DNA from: a virus
Reading direction: 5' to 3' (one strand)
Length of the DNA: 23,510 nucleotides
IMG/VR virus record: IMGVR_UViG_3300032006_000088
Span: 1 to 23,510 of that record
The notes beneath the pieces are model-generated. The model made no database searches. It saw only the letters and a program-made list of their open reading frames with translations, and was not told the DNA's origin. The translations under genes were made by a program, and so were the position numbers. Of this stretch, positions 9,519 through 22,510 are shown in pieces. Position 1 is the stretch's first letter. The number at the start of each line of letters is the position of its first letter.

Positions 9519-9923
9519 TTATTGTTTTACCATTTGAATTAATGACATAAGTTGATCCATCATTTTTGAACGTATTTGTCCAAAGCGATCACCATTAACA
9601 TCTTCTTCTGGATAAACTGCTTTGGTTTTATGATGTGCAACTAGGAAAAATTGATCCCAATATTCTGTTATTTTTTTCACTTCATCACTTACTGTAACAT
9701 CTTCAGGTAGTTTTGTTACGATTGGTGTTTTATTCCAACCACCTGTAAATGTTGTTTGTCCAGATTTAAATGGAGTGAATTTACCACCTTGTTCTTCAAA
9801 ACAGGTCTTATTTACGCATATTGCTTTTGGTTCTTTTTGGTAAAAAATATCATCACCAACTTCCCATTCATTACCACATATTTTACAATTTCCAGCGTAT
9901 TTGCCTTTTATCTTGGTACCCAT
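9519..9923 (-). CDS. Zinc-ribbon protein, unknown function
   Basis: A 134-residue protein. Residues about 10-47 form a zinc ribbon: C13-x2-C16-G-NEWEVGDDIFYQ, then C36 and C41 (ICVNKTCFEE). The C-terminal half is helical (DEVKKITEYWDQFFLVAHHKTK, then MMDQLMSLIQMVK). Ribbons of this layout are common in small archaeal and phage proteins that bind DNA or a protein partner. The start at 9923 is fixed by a TTTATAAA box at 9945-9952, about 25 bases upstream, and the divergent matrixin gene starts 34 bases away on the other strand. Confidence 0.65.
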   Translation of the reverse strand: MGTKIKGKYAGNCKICGNEWEVGDDIFYQKEPKAICVNKTCFEEQGGKFTPFKSGQTTFTGGWNKTPIVTKLPEDVTVSDEVKKITEYWDQFFLVAHHKTKAVYPEEDVNGDRFGQIRSKMMDQLMSLIQMVKQ

Positions 9924-9956
9924 GAAACTTATAAGTTACTCGAATTTATAAATGTT
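9924..9956. promoter_or_regulatory. Divergent promoter pair with interleaved TATA boxes
   Basis: The 33-base gap holds the palindrome ACTTATAAGT (9927-9936), centred about 25 bases before the plus-strand ATG at 9957, and TTTATAAA (9945-9952), centred about 25 bases before the minus-strand ATG at 9923. Each box lies close to the other gene's start, so the two transcription complexes would overlap and could exclude each other. Confidence 0.55.
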
Positions 9957-10790
9957 ATGGATAATATAGAAAAAGCATTATGGATAATTCTTATATCAGC
10001 TTTAATTACTTTTGGTAGTGTGGTATCAGTTTTTGGACAATACCCAGAAAATGATAAATATGAATATTTGGGTATAAGACATGATGTACGACCACAAGTT
10101 TGTCTTTTTGAACCTAACCCTACTCATGTAGATTGGAAGTATTGGAAAGAAGTAGAGTTTGAATCATGGAAAGCAATACTTGATTGGCAATTAGAAATGC
10201 AAGAGTTTCTACCTGAAGGTGATTGGAGTATGTATATACATTCAACAGTTCCTTACCATGAGCATTGGAATAAGACACCTGATGATTATAGACATTGTAC
10301 TATTTTTTTAACATATGAAGCATGGAATGACGATGAAGATAAGGCTTTAGGATATACAGGTATTGATTTTTCTAACAGTTCTCATAAATATACATTCATA
10401 GTTATATTCTTACACGCAACTAATGGTACTAGCTTAACATTAGATTTTGCTGATGGTTACAAAGATCCAGAAACAGGTGTTACTAAATTTGAGATTAATC
10501 TTGATAGAGAAGAACTACCATTACAAACTATTTACAATATAGTGTTACATGAAATGGGTCATGGTTTAGGTCTTGGACATTATGAAAGTGTGGCACCAAA
10601 CGGATTATATAGATCAACAATGACACCTAGTTTAAAGCCATTTAGTGACGATGTGTTTGAAATAAAAATAGCAGATAAGTTTATGCTGGGTTATCTTTAT
10701 GGTGTTGATGGCTATAAGAAACCACAACCACCTTGGATAGATGATTATTGTCTATTTGACCATGGAATAAAAGTTCTTGGTTGCTACTAA
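9957..10790 (+). CDS. Secreted matrixin-type zinc metalloprotease
   Basis: 277 residues from the ATG at 9957; a longer open frame from 9756 runs antisense through the neighbour and skips the promoter, so it is rejected. Residues 8-27 form a hydrophobic signal sequence ending near SVFGQ, so the protein is exported or membrane-anchored. The catalytic domain carries the full metzincin motif HEMGHGLGLGH (198-208: H198, E199, H202, H208) and a Met-turn (STMTP, M222), as in matrixin (M10) peptidases. The C-terminus has two cysteines (DYC and LGC) that could form a disulfide. Outside the cell it could cut the host S-layer or other surface proteins for release, entry or exclusion of rival viruses, or act on virion parts. 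Matrixin-like proteins are also annotated in Nitrosopumilus genomes (recalled), so capture from a host is plausible. Confidence 0.85.
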   Translation: MDNIEKALWIILISALITFGSVVSVFGQYPENDKYEYLGIRHDVRPQVCLFEPNPTHVDWKYWKEVEFESWKAILDWQLEMQEFLPEGDWSMYIHSTVPYHEHWNKTPDDYRHCTIFLTYEAWNDDEDKALGYTGIDFSNSSHKYTFIVIFLHATNGTSLTLDFADGYKDPETGVTKFEINLDREELPLQTIYNIVLHEMGHGLGLGHYESVAPNGLYRSTMTPSLKPFSDDVFEIKIADKFMLGYLYGVDGYKKPQPPWIDDYCLFDHGIKVLGCY

Positions 10791-13044: not shown

Positions 13045-14057
13045 TCTCTTCTCTCTTCTTTTTCGTCTTCGTCTTCTTTACGTTCTTTTTTATCTTTCTC
13101 TTGATCTCTGTAACGACCTTTACTATCAGAATATCTTGCATTATAAACACCAGTTGTTTCTGTTGAAGTTACGCCACTATTACCAGCACCGTCACCTTCT
13201 TTTGCTAACAACCATGCTTCCCATAAATCATTTGGTTGTATTTCGCCTGCATTTTTAAGGTCTTCTTCTTGTAATTTTTTACCTGCTTCACCTCTTCCCA
13301 ATAATTTTCCAGTGGTTGATCTGTATTCTGTATTCTCATCACCTACTGCTCGGTCATTATGTGAAAGTTTTCCACCATATGTATCTGCCATTTCACTTGA
13401 TGTTATTCCACCACTAAGACTTGGGTTATTAACAAATTTGTTTCCACCTTGTTGAATTTTATTTACATAATTTTTCTGTTTATCATCATTACCACCATTC
13501 TTTCTCCAATCTTCATTCATATCATCTTTATCTTCTTTATGTGATTCTTCAATACCATTATTTTTTTCTACTTTAGGTTTCTTATCTTCTAATTTAAATT
13601 CTTCTTTTGTTTGCTTGTCTCTATCATCTGATTCACCTTTATAGTCTTCAGGTGTTTCTACATCTGTATCTGTTGACACACCTGCTCTATTTCCACCTAT
13701 TTGACCATGTGTTGATTCTTCAATGTTTGTTTTTGCTAAAATATTTTTAAGTTCTTCTGGAAGTTGTTCCCATGTTTTTGATAGAAATCTTGGGCTAAAT
13801 GCGTGAGCCTTTACTAATTCATCTGTTTTTTCCTCAAGTGTCATGGAATTCCATGTTTTGTTTGTTAGTATATCTTTTACAAAAAAGGTATCATTTATAT
13901 GAATTTCATCAATAACCCCAGAATCTTTTAAAACAGATAAATATGCATTATTCATCTTAACAACAACTCCACGGTCTTCTTTACCATTTACATAGAAATG
14001 AATATTATCTCCTATTTTTGTGTGAGTTATCTTGTTTATATCTTCCATCTTACTCAT
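13041..14057 (-). CDS. Charged disordered protein with a beta-barrel-like N-terminus and a WExWL motif
   Basis: About 338 residues. Start candidates are GTG 14066, ATG 14057 and ATG 14048; 14057 overlaps the upstream stop and is used here. Residues about 15-110 look folded: strands GDNIHFYVNG, DRGVVVKM and NAYLSVLK suggest a small SH3-like barrel, followed by helices (TLEEKTDELVKAHAF, LPEELKNILAK). The rest is charged, G/N/D-rich and probably disordered, with a single LWEAWLLAKEG element near residues 281-291. That element matches three copies in the preceding gene. Its location right after TerL suggests a head or portal-region role, but no portal signature is recognised. Confidence 0.7.
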   Translation of the reverse strand: MSKMEDINKITHTKIGDNIHFYVNGKEDRGVVVKMNNAYLSVLKDSGVIDEIHINDTFFVKDILTNKTWNSMTLEEKTDELVKAHAFSPRFLSKTWEQLPEELKNILAKTNIEESTHGQIGGNRAGVSTDTDVETPEDYKGESDDRDKQTKEEFKLEDKKPKVEKNNGIEESHKEDKDDMNEDWRKNGGNDDKQKNYVNKIQQGGNKFVNNPSLSGGITSSEMADTYGGKLSHNDRAVGDENTEYRSTTGKLLGRGEAGKKLQEEDLKNAGEIQPNDLWEAWLLAKEGDGAGNSGVTSTETTGVYNARYSDSKGRYRDQEKDKKERKEDEDEKEERRE

Positions 14058-15126
14058 CTTTTTCACGCTTTCTTTCTATATAAGGTTTATTATCCTCTTT
14101 CTCTTCTTTTTCCTTTTCTAATGAAAAATCATCTTTTGATGTTTGTAAAACCCTAGGATCTTCAAAGCCAGTTTCATGTGGATTACCATATCTTGCATCT
14201 CCCTGACCCTGATCTTTTCTCAATTCTAGCCAATTTTCCCATGATTTGTCCTTCAAAGCCCTCCAATGTATAGGCTTATTTATGTGAGTTTGATAATTAT
14301 TGTCTTTATTTGGTGATTCTGCGTGTTCTTTCTGTGGAACTTTGTTTTTTTTCTCTAACCATTCTTCCCATGCTTTTTGTTTTATCTTTCTTTTCTTTTT
14401 ACGTGCTTCTATGGCTTCAGGTGTGTTGAATTCTTCTGCTTCCTTTGCATTGAATTCTGCATCTAGTTCTTTTTGTGTTTTTGGTACTACTCTTGTGCTA
14501 CCAGCCCCACTATGTTCATGTTCTGGGTCTTTTAAATATTGTAATTCTATACCTTTTGGAAGATTTTTAACATTTTCAGGCTTTAAGTAATTACTTGTAC
14601 TTCTACCTGTTTGTGTACTTCTACGCAGTTTTGTGCCTGTTACTGCTGGTTTCTCATCTCTTGTGTTTGCAAAATGACCTTTTATTCTTTTTGGTGCATT
14701 TGTTATATTCATCTGTGTTATATCACTAGCTGTGTCACCTTCTTTTTGTTGTGCCACATCAACTCCTTCAGTTCCACCCATAGCTTTTTCTAACCATATT
14801 TCCCATGATTTTTTCTTCTCTACTTCTTCTAATTCACCATCTGTTAATTCTTCCAAGTCTTCTTCTTCGTCCATAGCCTGATTTTTACCTTCTGTGGCTT
14901 CATATAATTTTATTTGGTCTTCTCCTTGATCTGCAATAAATTCTTTTTCTCTCTCCAATTCTGTTATACGTTTTGGGCTAAGTTTTGGTTTTGACATTTT
15001 TCTAGTTTTAGGAATACTTCGTCCTTTTCCACTTCTATTTGATACTTCTGCGATTTTTTCCTTCATAGCATCTAGTTTAGCTTGTGTTGCTCGTATCTCT
15101 GGATTTGATGAAGCCCTTTTTACCAT
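14050..15126 (-). CDS. Charged disordered protein with three WExWL motifs
   Basis: A 358-residue protein, rich in K, E and D and lacking long hydrophobic stretches. It holds three copies of a short aromatic element: SWEIWLEK (W108-L112), AWEEWLEK (W253-L257) and SWENWLEL (W296-L300), each preceded by lysines. Between them are coiled-coil-like segments and S/T/G-rich linkers. Repeated short amphipathic elements on a flexible chain suggest multivalent binding to one partner, for example capsid or portal subunits. It starts at ATG 15126 behind its own TATA box, 33 bases after the TerL stop, so the three charged genes form a separately controlled unit. Family unknown. Confidence 0.75.
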   Translation of the reverse strand: MVKRASSNPEIRATQAKLDAMKEKIAEVSNRSGKGRSIPKTRKMSKPKLSPKRITELEREKEFIADQGEDQIKLYEATEGKNQAMDEEEDLEELTDGELEEVEKKKSWEIWLEKAMGGTEGVDVAQQKEGDTASDITQMNITNAPKRIKGHFANTRDEKPAVTGTKLRRSTQTGRSTSNYLKPENVKNLPKGIELQYLKDPEHEHSGAGSTRVVPKTQKELDAEFNAKEAEEFNTPEAIEARKKKRKIKQKAWEEWLEKKNKVPQKEHAESPNKDNNYQTHINKPIHWRALKDKSWENWLELRKDQGQGDARYGNPHETGFEDPRVLQTSKDDFSLEKEKEEKEDNKPYIERKREKDE

Positions 15127-15159: not shown

Positions 15160-16551
15160 TTAACCAAAAAGATGTTTTTGAAGGTGTTCTTTTATGTCCA
15201 TAACGTGCCATCCTCCACCACCTTGAACTGCTCTACAAGCCAAAACAAGGCTATCAGGATAATCATCATGCTCTTCTGATTTTATTTTCATTACGCCTGT
15301 TTCAGTATATTCTCTTCTTAAATAAGATAGTTGGTAAACTAATTTATTTATCTCTTTTAATTTGATTTTATGGTTTTCAAATAATAATCTCAAATTTTTA
15401 TACATCTCTGCTTTTTCTTGTAATGTAAAAACAACTCCTCTAACTGGAAGATCTCTCTCTCTTGCTAAATCAACAAGTCCACCACCCAAACCAGTTTCAT
15501 CTATAAATACACTCTCTACTTTATAATCTCTAACAAGATCTCCTATTCTGCCACAAACATCAACTACATTGGATTGTGCTTCTGCAATAACATCTTCAAC
15601 AAAAACAACCTCGTCTTCATCTACACCTATAACCGTGAAAACCGTTTCATCACGACCTGTTCGTGCAATATCAACTCCCATATAATAGTTAATCCTTCCT
15701 CTTGGTTTATAATCAACAATCGCTTCTTTTATTAAATTATTTGGTATAAGTGCATTACCTATATCTAGGAATTCTCCTTCAACCTCTTGAACATATTCAT
15801 CTCTTGTAAGCTTCTTTATTTCTTCTAAAAATGAAGGATCTTCTTGAATTAATGGAGAATCTGTAGATTTTACATGAAACTCTGTCCACATACCATCAGG
15901 GTTTGATGGTTTAGCATTTTGACAAGCTTCAAAAAAGTAACCTGATTTTGAAAACGGAGTTGATGTAAGCCATACTCTAGCGTGTGTAGCCATTCCAGAA
16001 GGTAAGAATGCTTTTAGAATACTTGATTTAATGAAAGAACATTCGTCAGCAATAATACAATGTGGTGAATAACCTCTAAGTGATACACCAGTTTCACCTG
16101 TTGCCCTAGTGATTATTTTTGACATACCTTTACCGTCAAGATAATTAACCCAAAGTTCTGATTGTGTGTTTCTTACTATATAGCCTTTTAAGAAATCATT
16201 ATTTATGACAAGACTTCTTATTCTATCAAACATGATTGTAGCCTGATTTTGTGTAGGTGCTGCGATAACTATTGTACATTCATCTTTTACTGTTTTAAGT
16301 TGTAATGGTGCAAAGAACGCAAAATGTATTGCTTTTACTGCTGTTGACATTGTTTTACCCACCTGTCTTCCACTACGATACACAATAAATCTATCTTTAC
16401 AGTTTACATATTTTTGATTGTAATCAAATAGTTTATGGTTAAGAAACACTTCACTAAATTTACTTGGATTTGTAGCACACTCAGCTATAACTTGCATAAA
16501 ATCTTTTCTTTCTTTTACCTCTTCATTTGTGGGTCTAACCAATGGTTTCAC
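15160..16551 (-). CDS. Terminase large subunit (packaging ATPase and nuclease)
   Basis: A 463-residue TerL, the motor that pumps viral DNA into the prohead and cuts concatemers. ATPase part: Walker A RSGRQVGKT (59-67), Walker B IIADE (166-170) and a coupling motif around TSTPF (196-200). RNase-H-like nuclease part: GVDIARTGRD (D294), VFIDETG (D351) and HDDYPDSLVLA (D430, D434), all acidic metal-binding residues present. The start is GTG at 16551, overlapping the zinc microprotein by 17 bases. Complete domains imply an active motor, which defines a tailed, HK97-type virus. In most tailed viruses the portal gene follows TerL; here three charged proteins follow instead. Confidence 0.95.
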   Translation of the reverse strand: MKPLVRPTNEEVKERKDFMQVIAECATNPSKFSEVFLNHKLFDYNQKYVNCKDRFIVYRSGRQVGKTMSTAVKAIHFAFFAPLQLKTVKDECTIVIAAPTQNQATIMFDRIRSLVINNDFLKGYIVRNTQSELWVNYLDGKGMSKIITRATGETGVSLRGYSPHCIIADECSFIKSSILKAFLPSGMATHARVWLTSTPFSKSGYFFEACQNAKPSNPDGMWTEFHVKSTDSPLIQEDPSFLEEIKKLTRDEYVQEVEGEFLDIGNALIPNNLIKEAIVDYKPRGRINYYMGVDIARTGRDETVFTVIGVDEDEVVFVEDVIAEAQSNVVDVCGRIGDLVRDYKVESVFIDETGLGGGLVDLARERDLPVRGVVFTLQEKAEMYKNLRLLFENHKIKLKEINKLVYQLSYLRREYTETGVMKIKSEEHDDYPDSLVLACRAVQGGGGWHVMDIKEHLQKHLFG

Positions 16552-18350: not shown

Positions 18351-18473
18351 CTACCCAACTGTGTTTGTACAATCGCAACCTTCAACGCTACATCCATTTG
18401 TGCCTTCATGGTCATGTATTCCATGTTCACAAATTTCACACGTTCCACTTGCAATTTTTACTATATCTGCCAT
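18351..18473 (-). CDS. Cys/His-rich microprotein, 40 residues
   Basis: A 40-codon gene with C12-x2-C15-E-H17, then H20, H22, C28, C33 and C35 (GCSVEGCDCTN), enough ligands for one or two zinc ions. Its ATG shares a base with the BppU-like gene's stop (TGATG), and a GAGGAG ribosome-binding site lies just upstream inside that gene. It ends before the palindromic promoter at 18334, so it closes the tail-protein operon. Function unknown. Confidence 0.65.
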   Translation of the reverse strand: MADIVKIASGTCEICEHGIHDHEGTNGCSVEGCDCTNTVG

Positions 18474-18826
18474 CAATAACTCTCCTCAATTACAAAGTTA
18501 AAAGTTTTCGTTTGTTCTGAAATAGCTCCACTATTATCTTTCAATTCAACTTCACCTGACCAATTTCCAGCATTTGCTATGACTGTATCTGAAGTTTGTA
18601 ATGTGTAAGTAATTATACCATTTGATCTGTCAGAGAATACAATATTACCATTTATAAGAAGTGTTCCATCTGGCTTCCAAACTTTCCATTTACCTGTATT
18701 ATAATTTACCGTGTTTGAAAGGTTTTTTGCTGTACCTGCATCATTTGTTATTGTTAATTGTAAACTAATCAAGCTACCAGCTTTTACTCTAAATTCCGTT
18801 GATCTTCCTACCATATTCATACTCAT
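18473..18826 (-). CDS. BppU-like baseplate/tail protein with an Ig-like domain
   Basis: A 117-residue all-beta protein. The layout, EFRVKAGSLISLQLTITND, a KNLSN segment, KWKVWKPDGTLLINGNI, SNGIITYTLQTSD, NAGNWSGEVELKD and a closing strand TFNFVIEES, follows the N-terminal Ig-like domain of phage baseplate upper proteins (BppU), which attach receptor-binding proteins to the tail tip. It starts immediately after the stop of the giant fibre gene, supporting a host-recognition module. ATG codons at 18826, 18820 and 18814 are all possible starts; the first is used. Confidence 0.75.
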   Translation of the reverse strand: MSMNMVGRSTEFRVKAGSLISLQLTITNDAGTAKNLSNTVNYNTGKWKVWKPDGTLLINGNIVFSDRSNGIITYTLQTSDTVIANAGNWSGEVELKDNSGAISEQTKTFNFVIEESY

Positions 18827-21800
18827 CTAATTTCCACCTTCTACATTCTCTTCCGTGTCCCCACTACTTATAGTTTGTGAACTATCTGAGGTAGAAGCAC
18901 TCTCACTTGTTATACCTGTGCTTGTAGATTGTGATGTTGCTTCAGTTGAAGATGTCTCTGAAGTCCAATATGTTCCCAAATTCTGAGTTTGAATTATTAC
19001 TGTATTATATAGGTCTTTAAAGAAACTCTGTGTGATACCAATACTTTCATTGACAAACTGTTTAATTACAAATATTCTTTCTCTAAATGACTCTATTCCA
19101 ATATTTTCACCTATGAACATTTGTCTTCCTCTAACAAATATACTACTAAATGTAATTCCAATGTTTTCACCGATCAATACTGAGATATGCTTGAATGATT
19201 TTATTACTTCTGTCACACCAACAGTTGATGCAATTAATTTGGTAATCGCCCTTGTGTATATTTTTGATTCTGTAACTCCTATAGTTGAAGAAACAAATGC
19301 TTGTCTTATTCTTGAAAATACTGCTAATGTTGTAATTCCAACTGTTTCAGTTTGAATCTTCTTAAATACTCTTGTCCATTCTTCTGAATGTGTAATTCCA
19401 AGATTTTCACTTACAAAGTGTTGTAATACACGAATTCTTCTTCTAAATGATTGAATACCAACAGTAGATGTATTGAATCTTTGTAATACAGCTAATCTGA
19501 TTAATGACTCTGTTAAACCTATCTGAGTATTTATTAGTTTTATTATTGCCTTTATTCTTTCTTTTGATTCTGTTAATCCAATAGATTCATCAATGAATTT
19601 ACCAATTACTTTCACTCTTTCCTTTATTTCAGTAATTCCAATAGTAGATGTAGTAAACTTTTGTAATACTCTTGCAATTTGAGTTGTTGTTGTTATACCG
19701 ACTGTTTCAACAAATACTCTTGTCCATAATTTGAAGAAGTTTTCTGTTACACCTAAACTCTCATTAACAAAGTGTTGTAATGCTCTTACTCTTTTCCTAA
19801 ATGACTGTATTCCAACAGTTGAATTATTAAAGACTTGTAAGACTCTTAATCTTAATTCGTCTTGAGTAACACCTATTGTGTTGTCTATGAATCTTTGTAA
19901 AACTCTTGTTCTTAATTTTGATTCGGTAATACCAATGGTTGACTCTTTGAATCTTTGTATGACTCTGTTTGATACTTCTAAATGTGTAATTCCAATGGTT
20001 TCAGTTACTACAATTCTTAATAATGTTCTAACTCTCTTTCTGAATGACTCTATTCCAACTATTGATGTGTGGAATATTTGTAATACTCTTGAGGTTTCTT
20101 CAGAGGAACTTATACCAATAGTTGATGTGTGTAATCTTGCTTTTACCATTGTTGTTATAAATTCAACTTTTGTTTGGAATATGCTAGTTTGGAATATACT
20201 TTGGAATAAGTCTATTGCACCAATCCTCATTGTTTCTGATATGAATTTAAGCCTACCTCTTATTGTTATACTTGAAGATGTTATTCTCATGTCTTCTGTA
20301 ATTCTTTTAACAAAATTCTTTGCTCTTATTCTGAAAGATTGAATACCAACTGTTGACTCATGGAATATTTGTAATACTCTAGCAAACTTTGGTTTGGTTG
20401 TTACACCAATATTGGATTGATGGAATTGTTTAAAGTCTAATGCTTTCTTTGAATCTGTAGCTATACCAACTGTGCTTGTTGCCAATACACCTAACACTCT
20501 TGAGAACTTTTGTGAAGAAGTAATACCAACTGTACTATCAATAACAGATTTAATTATTGTTCTAACTCTTCTTCTAAATGATTGTATTCCGACTGTTGAT
20601 TTATGGAACATTTGAAGTGTTCTTGCGAACAAGAATGATGTTGTAACACCAACTGTTTCTGTAAACACTCTTGTCCATAATTTGAAGAAGTTTTCTGTTA
20701 CGCCAACAGTTGACTCATGGAATTGTTTAAAGTCTTGTGCCTTCTTGGAAGAAGTGGCTATACCAACTGTGCTTGTTACAAAGTGTATTAATGTTCTAAC
20801 TCTCTTTCTGAATGATTGTATTCCTATTGTGGACTCATGGAACATTTGTAATGTTCTTGCAAACAGTTGTGTTGAAGTAATACCTACTGTGGTTTCAAGG
20901 AATCTTTGTAAGACTCTTGAGGACTTGAATGAAGTTGTAATTCCAATAGTGGTTTCAATGAACTTTTGGATAGTCTTTGAGAACAATGCATCAGTTGTAA
21001 TACCAACACTTTCTGTAAAGTATTCAAATAATCCCAATGTTCTTGCAGTTTCATGTCCTTTAAAGAATATTCGACCTTGGAATGTATTTCTTTGGAAAAG
21101 AGGATTTTTCTTTACTACATCAACGGTTTCATTAACAAAGTGTATTAATGTTCTAACTCTTTTCCTAAACGACTGTATTCCTACAGTTGATTCATGGAAC
21201 ATCTGTAATACTCTTACTCTCAACTCACTTTGAGTTATTCCTACTGTAGTTTCATGGAATCTTTGATAAACTGCTGTTCTAAATTTATCTTCTGTGTTTC
21301 CAATACTTTCCTCTATGAATTTATTAATTACTCTTACTCTACGTCTAAATGACTCTATACCAACAGTTGTAGAAATGAATTTTTGTATTACTTTTGAAGT
21401 TTCAAATGAGGTAGTTATACCAACACTTTCTGCAAAGAATCTTGCCCATAACTTAATGAATCCTTCTGTGTTTCCAATAGTTTCATCAATGAATTTTAAT
21501 AGGACTTTTGATCTAGTTCTAAATGAAGCCACACCTACAGTTTCAGTAAAGGCAACAACAAATCCTAAAACCACTTGTCGAGCTTCTGTAACACCAATCG
21601 TAGATGTGTTAAATCTGTTAAGAACTCTTGTCCAATTATATCCTTCCGTACTACCTATTGTTTCTGTTATGAATTTTAATAATACTCTTGCTCTCTTTCT
21701 AAACGATTGTATTCCAATAGATTCTTCAAATGCTTTAAATATAACCGAAGCTGTTTCTAAACTAGAAGTGATACCAATAGTATCATCTACAAATCTTACA

Positions 21801-22510
21801 AAGTCTTTTGCTCTAATTCTAAAGGATTCTACTCCTACAGTTGATTTGTGGAATCTTTGCATAGCCCTTACTCTTAATTCATCTTGAGTAACACCTATGG
21901 TTGAATTATCTGTTCGTATCTTTCCAAGTGTTGTAACTGCTTCTGTTACAAAATGAAATACATTGTTTTGGAATAATGTTTGGAATGTTTGTGGTATTAT
22001 AACTTTTACAGTTTCGGTGAATACTCTTACCCATTTCTTTGTAAATGACTGAGTTATTCCTACTGTAGTTTCATGGAATCTTTGTAATATTCTTGAACTT
22101 AGTTTTGTTTCTGTAAGACCAACATCTTCTTCAAGCATACTAATGATTGCTCTTAATCTTTCATATCCCTCAGTAGTTCCCATTTGCTCTTCAAATGCTT
22201 TAAGTATGGTTCTAGTGAATTTGGAACTTTCGGTATATCCTAATGATTCTGTGACAAAATGTATTAATGCTCTAGTTCTAATTCTAAAGGATTCTACTCC
22301 CATTTCCTCTGTTAATGCTTTTACTAACACTCTGACAGTTTCTCTTGATTCTGTTATACCATAAGACTCATTAACTAATTTTACTATTGCCTGTAATACA
22401 TCAAACACATTTGGCTGGAATATACCCCTGTCATATGTTATATCACCCCATGCTTTTTGAAAAGCATTACTTTGAAATTCGTCTTGAAAGACTTGACTTA
22501 TTTTAGCCAA
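18827..22510 (-). CDS. Giant 20-residue-repeat fibre protein
   Basis: A 1227-residue protein starting at TTG (22510; no ATG occurs before about residue 70). It has three parts: an N-terminal segment (1-50) with FQDEFQSNAFQ, a shaft of about 51 tandem units (51-1157), and a Ser/Thr-rich tail (about 1184-1227). The unit is about G-[IV]-[TQE]-[ES]-[SF]-x4-R-V-L-x2-F-x-E-S-[TV]-[IV], nearly always exactly 20 residues; four units have an 18-residue W-containing form (e.g. NFFKLWTRVF) and two have 21. Three units carry inserts with an FQxxFQxxxF-like motif. I find no cysteine. The regular strand-helix pattern fits a long trimeric or solenoid tail fibre or stalk. Its place between a lectin-like protein and a BppU-like protein supports a role in host binding. 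Family unknown; ES-x-T-[DE]-S repeats recall thaumarchaeal surface proteins. Confidence 0.85.
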   Translation of the reverse strand: MAKISQVFQDEFQSNAFQKAWGDITYDRGIFQPNVFDVLQAIVKLVNESYGITESRETVRVLVKALTEEMGVESFRIRTRALIHFVTESLGYTESSKFTRTILKAFEEQMGTTEGYERLRAIISMLEEDVGLTETKLSSRILQRFHETTVGITQSFTKKWVRVFTETVKVIIPQTFQTLFQNNVFHFVTEAVTTLGKIRTDNSTIGVTQDELRVRAMQRFHKSTVGVESFRIRAKDFVRFVDDTIGITSSLETASVIFKAFEESIGIQSFRKRARVLLKFITETIGSTEGYNWTRVLNRFNTSTIGVTEARQVVLGFVVAFTETVGVASFRTRSKVLLKFIDETIGNTEGFIKLWARFFAESVGITTSFETSKVIQKFISTTVGIESFRRRVRVINKFIEESIGNTEDKFRTAVYQRFHETTVGITQSELRVRVLQMFHESTVGIQSFRKRVRTLIHFVNETVDVVKKNPLFQRNTFQGRIFFKGHETARTLGLFEYFTESVGITTDALFSKTIQKFIETTIGITTSFKSSRVLQRFLETTVGITSTQLFARTLQMFHESTIGIQSFRKRVRTLIHFVTSTVGIATSSKKAQDFKQFHESTVGVTENFFKLWTRVFTETVGVTTSFLFARTLQMFHKSTVGIQSFRRRVRTIIKSVIDSTVGITSSQKFSRVLGVLATSTVGIATDSKKALDFKQFHQSNIGVTTKPKFARVLQIFHESTVGIQSFRIRAKNFVKRITEDMRITSSSITIRGRLKFISETMRIGAIDLFQSIFQTSIFQTKVEFITTMVKARLHTSTIGISSSEETSRVLQIFHTSIVGIESFRKRVRTLLRIVVTETIGITHLEVSNRVIQRFKESTIGITESKLRTRVLQRFIDNTIGVTQDELRLRVLQVFNNSTVGIQSFRKRVRALQHFVNESLGVTENFFKLWTRVFVETVGITTTTQIARVLQKFTTSTIGITEIKERVKVIGKFIDESIGLTESKERIKAIIKLINTQIGLTESLIRLAVLQRFNTSTVGIQSFRRRIRVLQHFVSENLGITHSEEWTRVFKKIQTETVGITTLAVFSRIRQAFVSSTIGVTESKIYTRAITKLIASTVGVTEVIKSFKHISVLIGENIGITFSSIFVRGRQMFIGENIGIESFRERIFVIKQFVNESIGITQSFFKDLYNTVIIQTQNLGTYWTSETSSTEATSQSTSTGITSESASTSDSSQTISSGDTEENVEGGN
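19015..22360 (-). repeat. 60-bp tandem repeat array coding the fibre shaft
   Basis: About 51 coding units with a 60-bp period run through the fibre gene. The SFR-type unit (G-I-Q-S-F-R-x-R) recurs at units 2, 8, 10, 13, 16, 19, 23, 27, 31, 35, 39, 45 and 51, so a 4-unit (about 240 bp) super-period holds over units 19-39. Some copies are nearly identical in DNA, for example around 19711-19755 and 20668-20705, indicating recent duplication or gene conversion. Confidence 0.9.

Follow-up and report, generated by a model that had tools for sequence, protein, structure and literature searches.

Proteins built from 20-residue units as probable tail fibres of marine tailed viruses

The repeat gene and its relatives

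The stretch of DNA analysed here (the window) is the whole of IMG/VR virus record IMGVR_UViG_3300032006_000088, a linear sequence of 23,510 bases that is probably a fragment. The repeat gene, its parts and the neighbouring genes used below are the following.

15160..16551, minus strand: TerL (PF03237/PF17289; phrog_2, E 7.5e-46), the query for relatives
18473..18826, minus strand: BppU_N-like baseplate protein of 117 aa, adjoining downstream (PF10651, E 6e-8, 32.9 bits against a cut-off of 23.1)
18827..22510, minus strand: gene for the repeat-built, putative fibre protein, an open frame with a TTG start, 1227 aa
22364..22510, minus strand: N-terminal FQ module (MAKISQVFQDEFQSNAFQKAWG...), a conserved end and the proposed attachment end
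22010..22363, minus strand: putative shaft block 1, units 1-6, from the profile scan
21899..22009, minus strand: internal FQ module 1 (QTFQTLFQNNVF), an insert between units 6 and 7
21125..21898, minus strand: putative shaft block 2, units 7-19, from the profile scan
21008..21124, minus strand: internal FQ module 2 (LFQRNTFQGRIF), an insert between units 19 and 20
20231..21007, minus strand: putative shaft block 3, units 20-32, with a local four-unit recurrence 19-23-27-31, from the profile scan and a unit-by-unit DNA comparison
20120..20230, minus strand: internal FQ module 3 (LFQSIFQTSIFQ), an insert between units 32 and 33
19043..20119, minus strand: putative shaft block 4, units 33-50, from the profile scan
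18827..19042, minus strand: C-terminal part, a partial unit followed by a Ser/Thr/Glu-rich tail (...SQTISSGDTEENVEGGN), common to L002 and L003
22520..23509, minus strand: upstream gene, truncated by the window end, without a Pfam match; in relatives this slot holds LamG or glycine-rich adhesin-like genes

An iterated 20-column profile, refined from the protein's own sequence, placed 50 units in the window protein. Start-to-start spacing was 20 residues in 41 of 49 cases, 18 in three and 21 in two, and the remaining three spacings span an FQ-rich insert of 35-39 residues. Shuffling the protein left 0.26 units above the same profile cut-off, so that the 20-residue periodicity is real and well past chance. 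Self-identity was 25% at a lag of 20 residues and 21, 17 and 14% at lags of 40, 60 and 80. This internal repeat analysis, which the initial annotation had proposed as a check, bears out its reading of about 51 units, nearly all of exactly 20 residues.

Relatives were gathered by a TerL search, which gave 55 related loci, and repeats were detected in these with the profile of the window's units first and a family profile second. Most of the 55 loci hold the repeat; 17 were without a match, many of them contigs that reach little upstream of TerL. An alignment of the N-terminal end brought in further loci beyond the TerL set: eight of the twelve records reached mainly by this route hold this TerL (73-81% identity), and the others may be fragments. 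Dozens of related marine virus contigs, with TerL 73-90% identical, carry the repeat gene, as a rule a short way upstream of TerL. The N-terminus of the window protein lines up with the ATG or TTG starts of these relatives, among which the F8, Q9, Q18 and G22-type columns of the N-terminal FQ module are invariant.

The first 27 aligned proteins, window included, contain 848 units with the consensus VSISESxxRLRGLVRIINET, and 730 of their 777 short spacings are exactly 20 residues. Among distinct family units, position 15 is R/K in 92% and position 19 is D/E in 73%. Protein size across the family ranges from about 350 to more than 3,300 residues and unit number from about 10 to more than 100, the longest members (3,328 and 3,022 aa) being rich in FQ modules. 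In L073 (1065-11048) and L074 (5097-14162), proteins of 3,000-3,300 residues, 20-residue units and FQ modules, the latter in dozens, alternate along the chain, with more than 70 FQ-type motifs in each protein. Two MAFFT alignments (A1 and A2) were gap-ridden, probably because SFR-type units attract each other, and a third (A3) was used instead.

No match in Pfam, NCBIfam, PHROGs or PDB sequences explains the repeat, which agrees with the initial annotation, to which no described fibre fold with this consensus was known, and the unit profile found no relative among PDB sequences. The few low-E family matches of the repeat protein had no significant single stretch, and other matches of the window protein stayed below the cut-off. 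Two of the candidates, DUF2853 in the window protein and DUF2642 in L012, the only relative to exceed a cut-off, were rejected on these grounds, their scores being summed over the repeats. A direct search of viral contigs with the full window protein gave no match, probably because patterns from a single sequence are too specific, and tblastn against a phage collection with the window protein, a relative and an FQ-rich region as queries gave none either. In genome scans, neither the N-terminal alignment nor RadA gave a confirmed match, a negative made weak by the pattern method. Family, sequence-structure and phage-collection searches thus returned no characterised protein for the repeat. Judged from its sequence, the repeat is real and family-wide and belongs to a previously unclassified type.

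Length changes and the recurrence of SFR units

Between close relatives, insertions and deletions measured 180, 20+20, 18 and 2 residues, with 40 also among the size differences; the exception was one of 9 residues, which lies within a C-terminal tail. In a wider tally, some entries of which come from near-duplicate pairs, near-multiples of 20 dominated the larger sizes, and 22, 25 and 33 also occurred. Whole-unit changes of this kind would be expected if each unit formed one structural element. Together with the family-wide spacings, these largely whole-unit changes uphold the strict length control that had been claimed for the window protein. The comparisons show that the putative fibre evolves in length through gain, loss and copying of whole units, with the register of the chain kept.

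The window and L002 are 89% identical in TerL, 85% (84.6%) in the BppU_N-like protein and 82% in the nuclease. Within the repeat protein, identity was 67.5% at the N-terminal end, 63% over 62 aa at the C-terminal end and 29% in the shaft. The upstream gene, two downstream genes and a metalloprotease gene are also only 29-39% identical between the two, so rapid divergence is not peculiar to the shaft. The C-terminal tails are of two main kinds, Ser/Thr/Glu-rich (window, L002 and L003) and Lys/Arg-rich with a KGADR-like ending, and look as if they were exchanged tips. We know of no receptor-binding tip that the tail of the window protein resembles.

SFR-type units occupy positions 2, 8, 10, 13, 16, 19, 23, 27, 31, 34, 38, 44 and 50 of the window protein, at intervals of 6, 2, 3, 3, 3, 4, 4, 4, 3, 4, 6 and 6 units. 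Successive steps of four are confined to the stretch from unit 19 to unit 31. A return at units 19, 23, 27, 31, 35 and 39, as originally described, requires that the insert at unit 32 be counted as a unit and the insert at unit 19 not. In residues, the steps from unit 19 are 119, 78, 81, 97 and 81, then 118 and 120, and the three FQ-rich inserts break the four-unit regularity. The run of three fours had P = 0.011 under random placement in a test that was picked post hoc.

It had been proposed that this recurrence is a structural super-period, with a turn or contact every four units. SFR units are indeed spaced more evenly than random in the window protein (P = 0.004), and SFR-like units are so in L012, L024, L058, L060 and L064 (P≤0.002), although L024 and L058 are close relatives. 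A fixed structural period is nonetheless hard to reconcile with intervals that vary from 2 to 6 in the window protein and from 1 to 31, mostly 2-9, in 17 related proteins, without a common period. Furthermore, units 18, 22 and 26 and the SFR units 19, 23 and 27 have 68-78% DNA identity where listed, and local DNA blocks that are 79-85% identical at lags of 119 and 78 residues link these unit pairs. Duplication of a DNA block holding a unit pair accounts for the 19-23-27 recurrence. The recurrence is therefore local, coincides with a segmental duplication and is not conserved, and we regard a four-unit structural period as highly improbable. The only explanations that we can offer for the even spread of SFR units are block copying or a stabilising role at spaced intervals.

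Fold of the 20-residue unit

AlphaFold2 monomer models were unusable, with a pLDDT of 40 for 11 units (from a gap-free 30-row alignment) and of 44 for the N-terminus. The hydrophobicity of the averaged family unit peaked at a period of 3.33 residues, with 42% of the power (P = 0.011-0.023), and the same period was weaker in the window protein alone (P = 0.05-0.19). Unit positions 4-18 had a helix-like hydrophobic moment (P = 0.035) and no excess in the beta band (P = 0.62). Ten harmonics were inspected, so that these P values are indicative only, and a hydrophobic average does not separate a trimer from other assemblies. The conserved pairs E5/R9 and R15/E19 are each four residues apart, as in helices. 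These features weakly favour a helical trimer with regular breaks, and we place little confidence in any one exact form of it. Each unit might then be one structural step, in which a short amphipathic helix over about positions 5-17 leads into a short link in extended form, and a homotrimer of such chains might form a helical fibre broken once per unit.

A shaft of triple beta-structure (a beta-spiral or beta-helix to which each unit adds two strands, as in fibre shafts of the adenovirus kind) would suit the abundance of V, I, S and T in the unit and the alternation V1-S2-I3-S4, and a unit of 18 rather than 20 residues, being two shorter, would keep strand alternation. The lack of a beta periodicity over positions 4-18 and the helix-style spacing of the two charged pairs argue against it. 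The adenovirus-type triple beta-spiral has a repeat of 15 residues, a length that the 20-residue unit does not share. We consider a beta-structured shaft rather unlikely.

The broken-helix fibre could, more specifically, be a parallel trimeric coiled coil in which six residues are inserted for every two heptads, giving a triangular beta-layer in each unit. Hartmann et al. (2016, PMC4786415) showed that 2 or 6 residues inserted into heptads break helices into beta-layers and that such layers are present in the tail fibre of a streptococcal prophage. The unit length of 20 equals 14 + 6, one residue less than three heptads and six more than two, and its hydrophobic columns 3, 6, 10, 13 and 17 fit one heptad register, with 3, 10 and 17, and likewise 6 and 13, seven apart. 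The 3.33-residue period also coincides with the lowest value given for an uninterrupted coiled coil (PMC4786415). However, the published motif aliphatic-A-T-K-polar-D/E was absent from the family profile, where the nearest stretch, T-V-S-I-S-E, is without A-T-K, and it fits no register cleanly; an alternative register with the beta-layer at I17-N18-E19 was rejected for the same reason. With a capping box S2-x-x-E5, position e is I/V and not K/R. In addition, the 18-residue units sit less well with the 14 + 6 register and are not derivable from its arithmetic. We hold this coiled coil to be a tentative possibility.

The alpha/beta coiled coils of PMC4786415 would resemble the favoured broken helical trimer in being broken trimeric helical fibres with short beta elements at a set spacing, six residues per two heptads and a presence in phage tail fibres, but they have 9-residue repeats with an A-T-K-x-D/E motif and no sequence match to the 20-residue unit. 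The fibres of R-type pyocins and the head fibre stem of phi29 (PMC6116203) are likewise trimeric, with short helices and turns along the axis. Pyocin helices are of 3-4 residues with variable linkers and are undetectable as sequence repeats (PMC6116203), whereas here the sequence unit is strictly 20 residues. The unit may possibly be a natural broken-helix element, a helix plus a beta-layer or turn, present in up to more than 100 copies per chain and letting marine archaeal viruses tune fibre length unit by unit, with the FQ modules as a second undescribed block, although we put this forward with some doubt. Should the unit prove to be a trimeric helix broken at regular points, a fibre class otherwise represented by a few short examples would be extended.

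Gene order, probable role and host

Gene order was followed in two fuller relatives. G015 has, in order, capsid, tail tube, a large protein, baseplate-like genes, LamG and glycine-rich adhesins, the repeat gene, the BppU_N-like gene (117 aa), nuclease and TerL, and G006 matches this order for tail tube, large protein, adhesin-like genes, repeat gene and TerL. Domain matches in these relatives were PF18906 for the tail tube (E 2.4e-21), PF13385 for LamG (E 2e-13) and PF21722 for the glycine-rich domain (E 3e-20). The BppU_N match reached the curated cut-off in just 4 of 15 related records. Adhesin-like gene arrays with LamG or glycine-rich domains and an N-terminal motif like YLAGNRLQGT also lie upstream of the fibre gene in L057, L063, L065 and L006.

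Because the gene follows the tail-tube and adhesin genes and precedes that of the BppU_N-like protein, it may be assigned to the tail or baseplate. We think that it probably encodes a long tail fibre fixed on or close to the baseplate, and that the tailed virus bearing it infects marine archaea, most likely Thaumarchaeota that oxidise ammonia. A very long, repetitive protein whose length shifts by whole units could also be a tape measure protein, with unit number setting tail length. However, the usual slot for that protein in G015 and G006, from tail tube to baseplate-like genes, is taken by the other large protein (646 and 799 aa, no family match), and the repeat gene comes after the baseplate-like and adhesin genes. 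A tape measure role was therefore rejected as very unlikely.

In the proposed tail fibre, the conserved N-terminal FQ module would anchor the protein, the approximately 50 exchangeable 20-residue units would make up the shaft, FQ modules at intervals could act as nodes or hinges, and the short low-complexity C-terminal tail may serve as the tip or contact a partner. The fibre would hold the virus on the host envelope or search it, alongside the lectin-like and glycine-rich adhesins whose genes lie immediately upstream. The BppU_N-like protein encoded directly downstream recalls the receptor-binding modules of lactococcal siphophage baseplates (PF10651). The fibre itself, however, is without a BppU domain, and the downstream 117-aa protein corresponds to the N-terminal domain only.

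To our knowledge, the attachment of tailed viruses to marine ammonia oxidisers is largely unknown. The repeat gene offers a concrete candidate for attachment and length control, found in dozens of contigs, with whole-unit shaft changes between two steadier ends. A marine archaeon that oxidises ammonia is the probable host, since amoC scored above the curated cut-off in three related records, G011, G021 and G012 (L078 1483-2061, L076 and L077); the 192-aa amoC protein of one record looks archaeal. Ammonia-oxidising Thaumarchaeota are thus the probable hosts, an assignment that for the window virus is drawn from its clade. Marine Thaumarchaeota tailed viruses carrying amoC were described by Ahlgren et al. 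(2019), as cited in PMC8115048, and tailed-virus records of this clade likewise hold amoC. Among the frames of the 23.5 kb window itself, no amoC gene was noticed.

Besides TerL, the window encodes a PDDEXK-type nuclease, an MCM-type helicase and a RadA-like protein, the last two of which we named by the look of their sequences. On the opposite strand, 9756-10790 (plus strand) encodes a matrixin-like metalloprotease whose zinc motif reads HEMGHGLGLGH and whose N-terminal part includes a hydrophobic stretch; its PF00413 score is below the cut-off, and its L002 counterpart is 39% identical. Adjoining TerL at 14050-15126 (minus strand) is the gene of a protein that is charged and probably disordered and in which W-x-x-W-L-E is repeated (WEIWLE, WEEWLE and WENWLE); this sequence recurs in 3-6 copies at the equivalent place in relatives and is perhaps a short binding motif.
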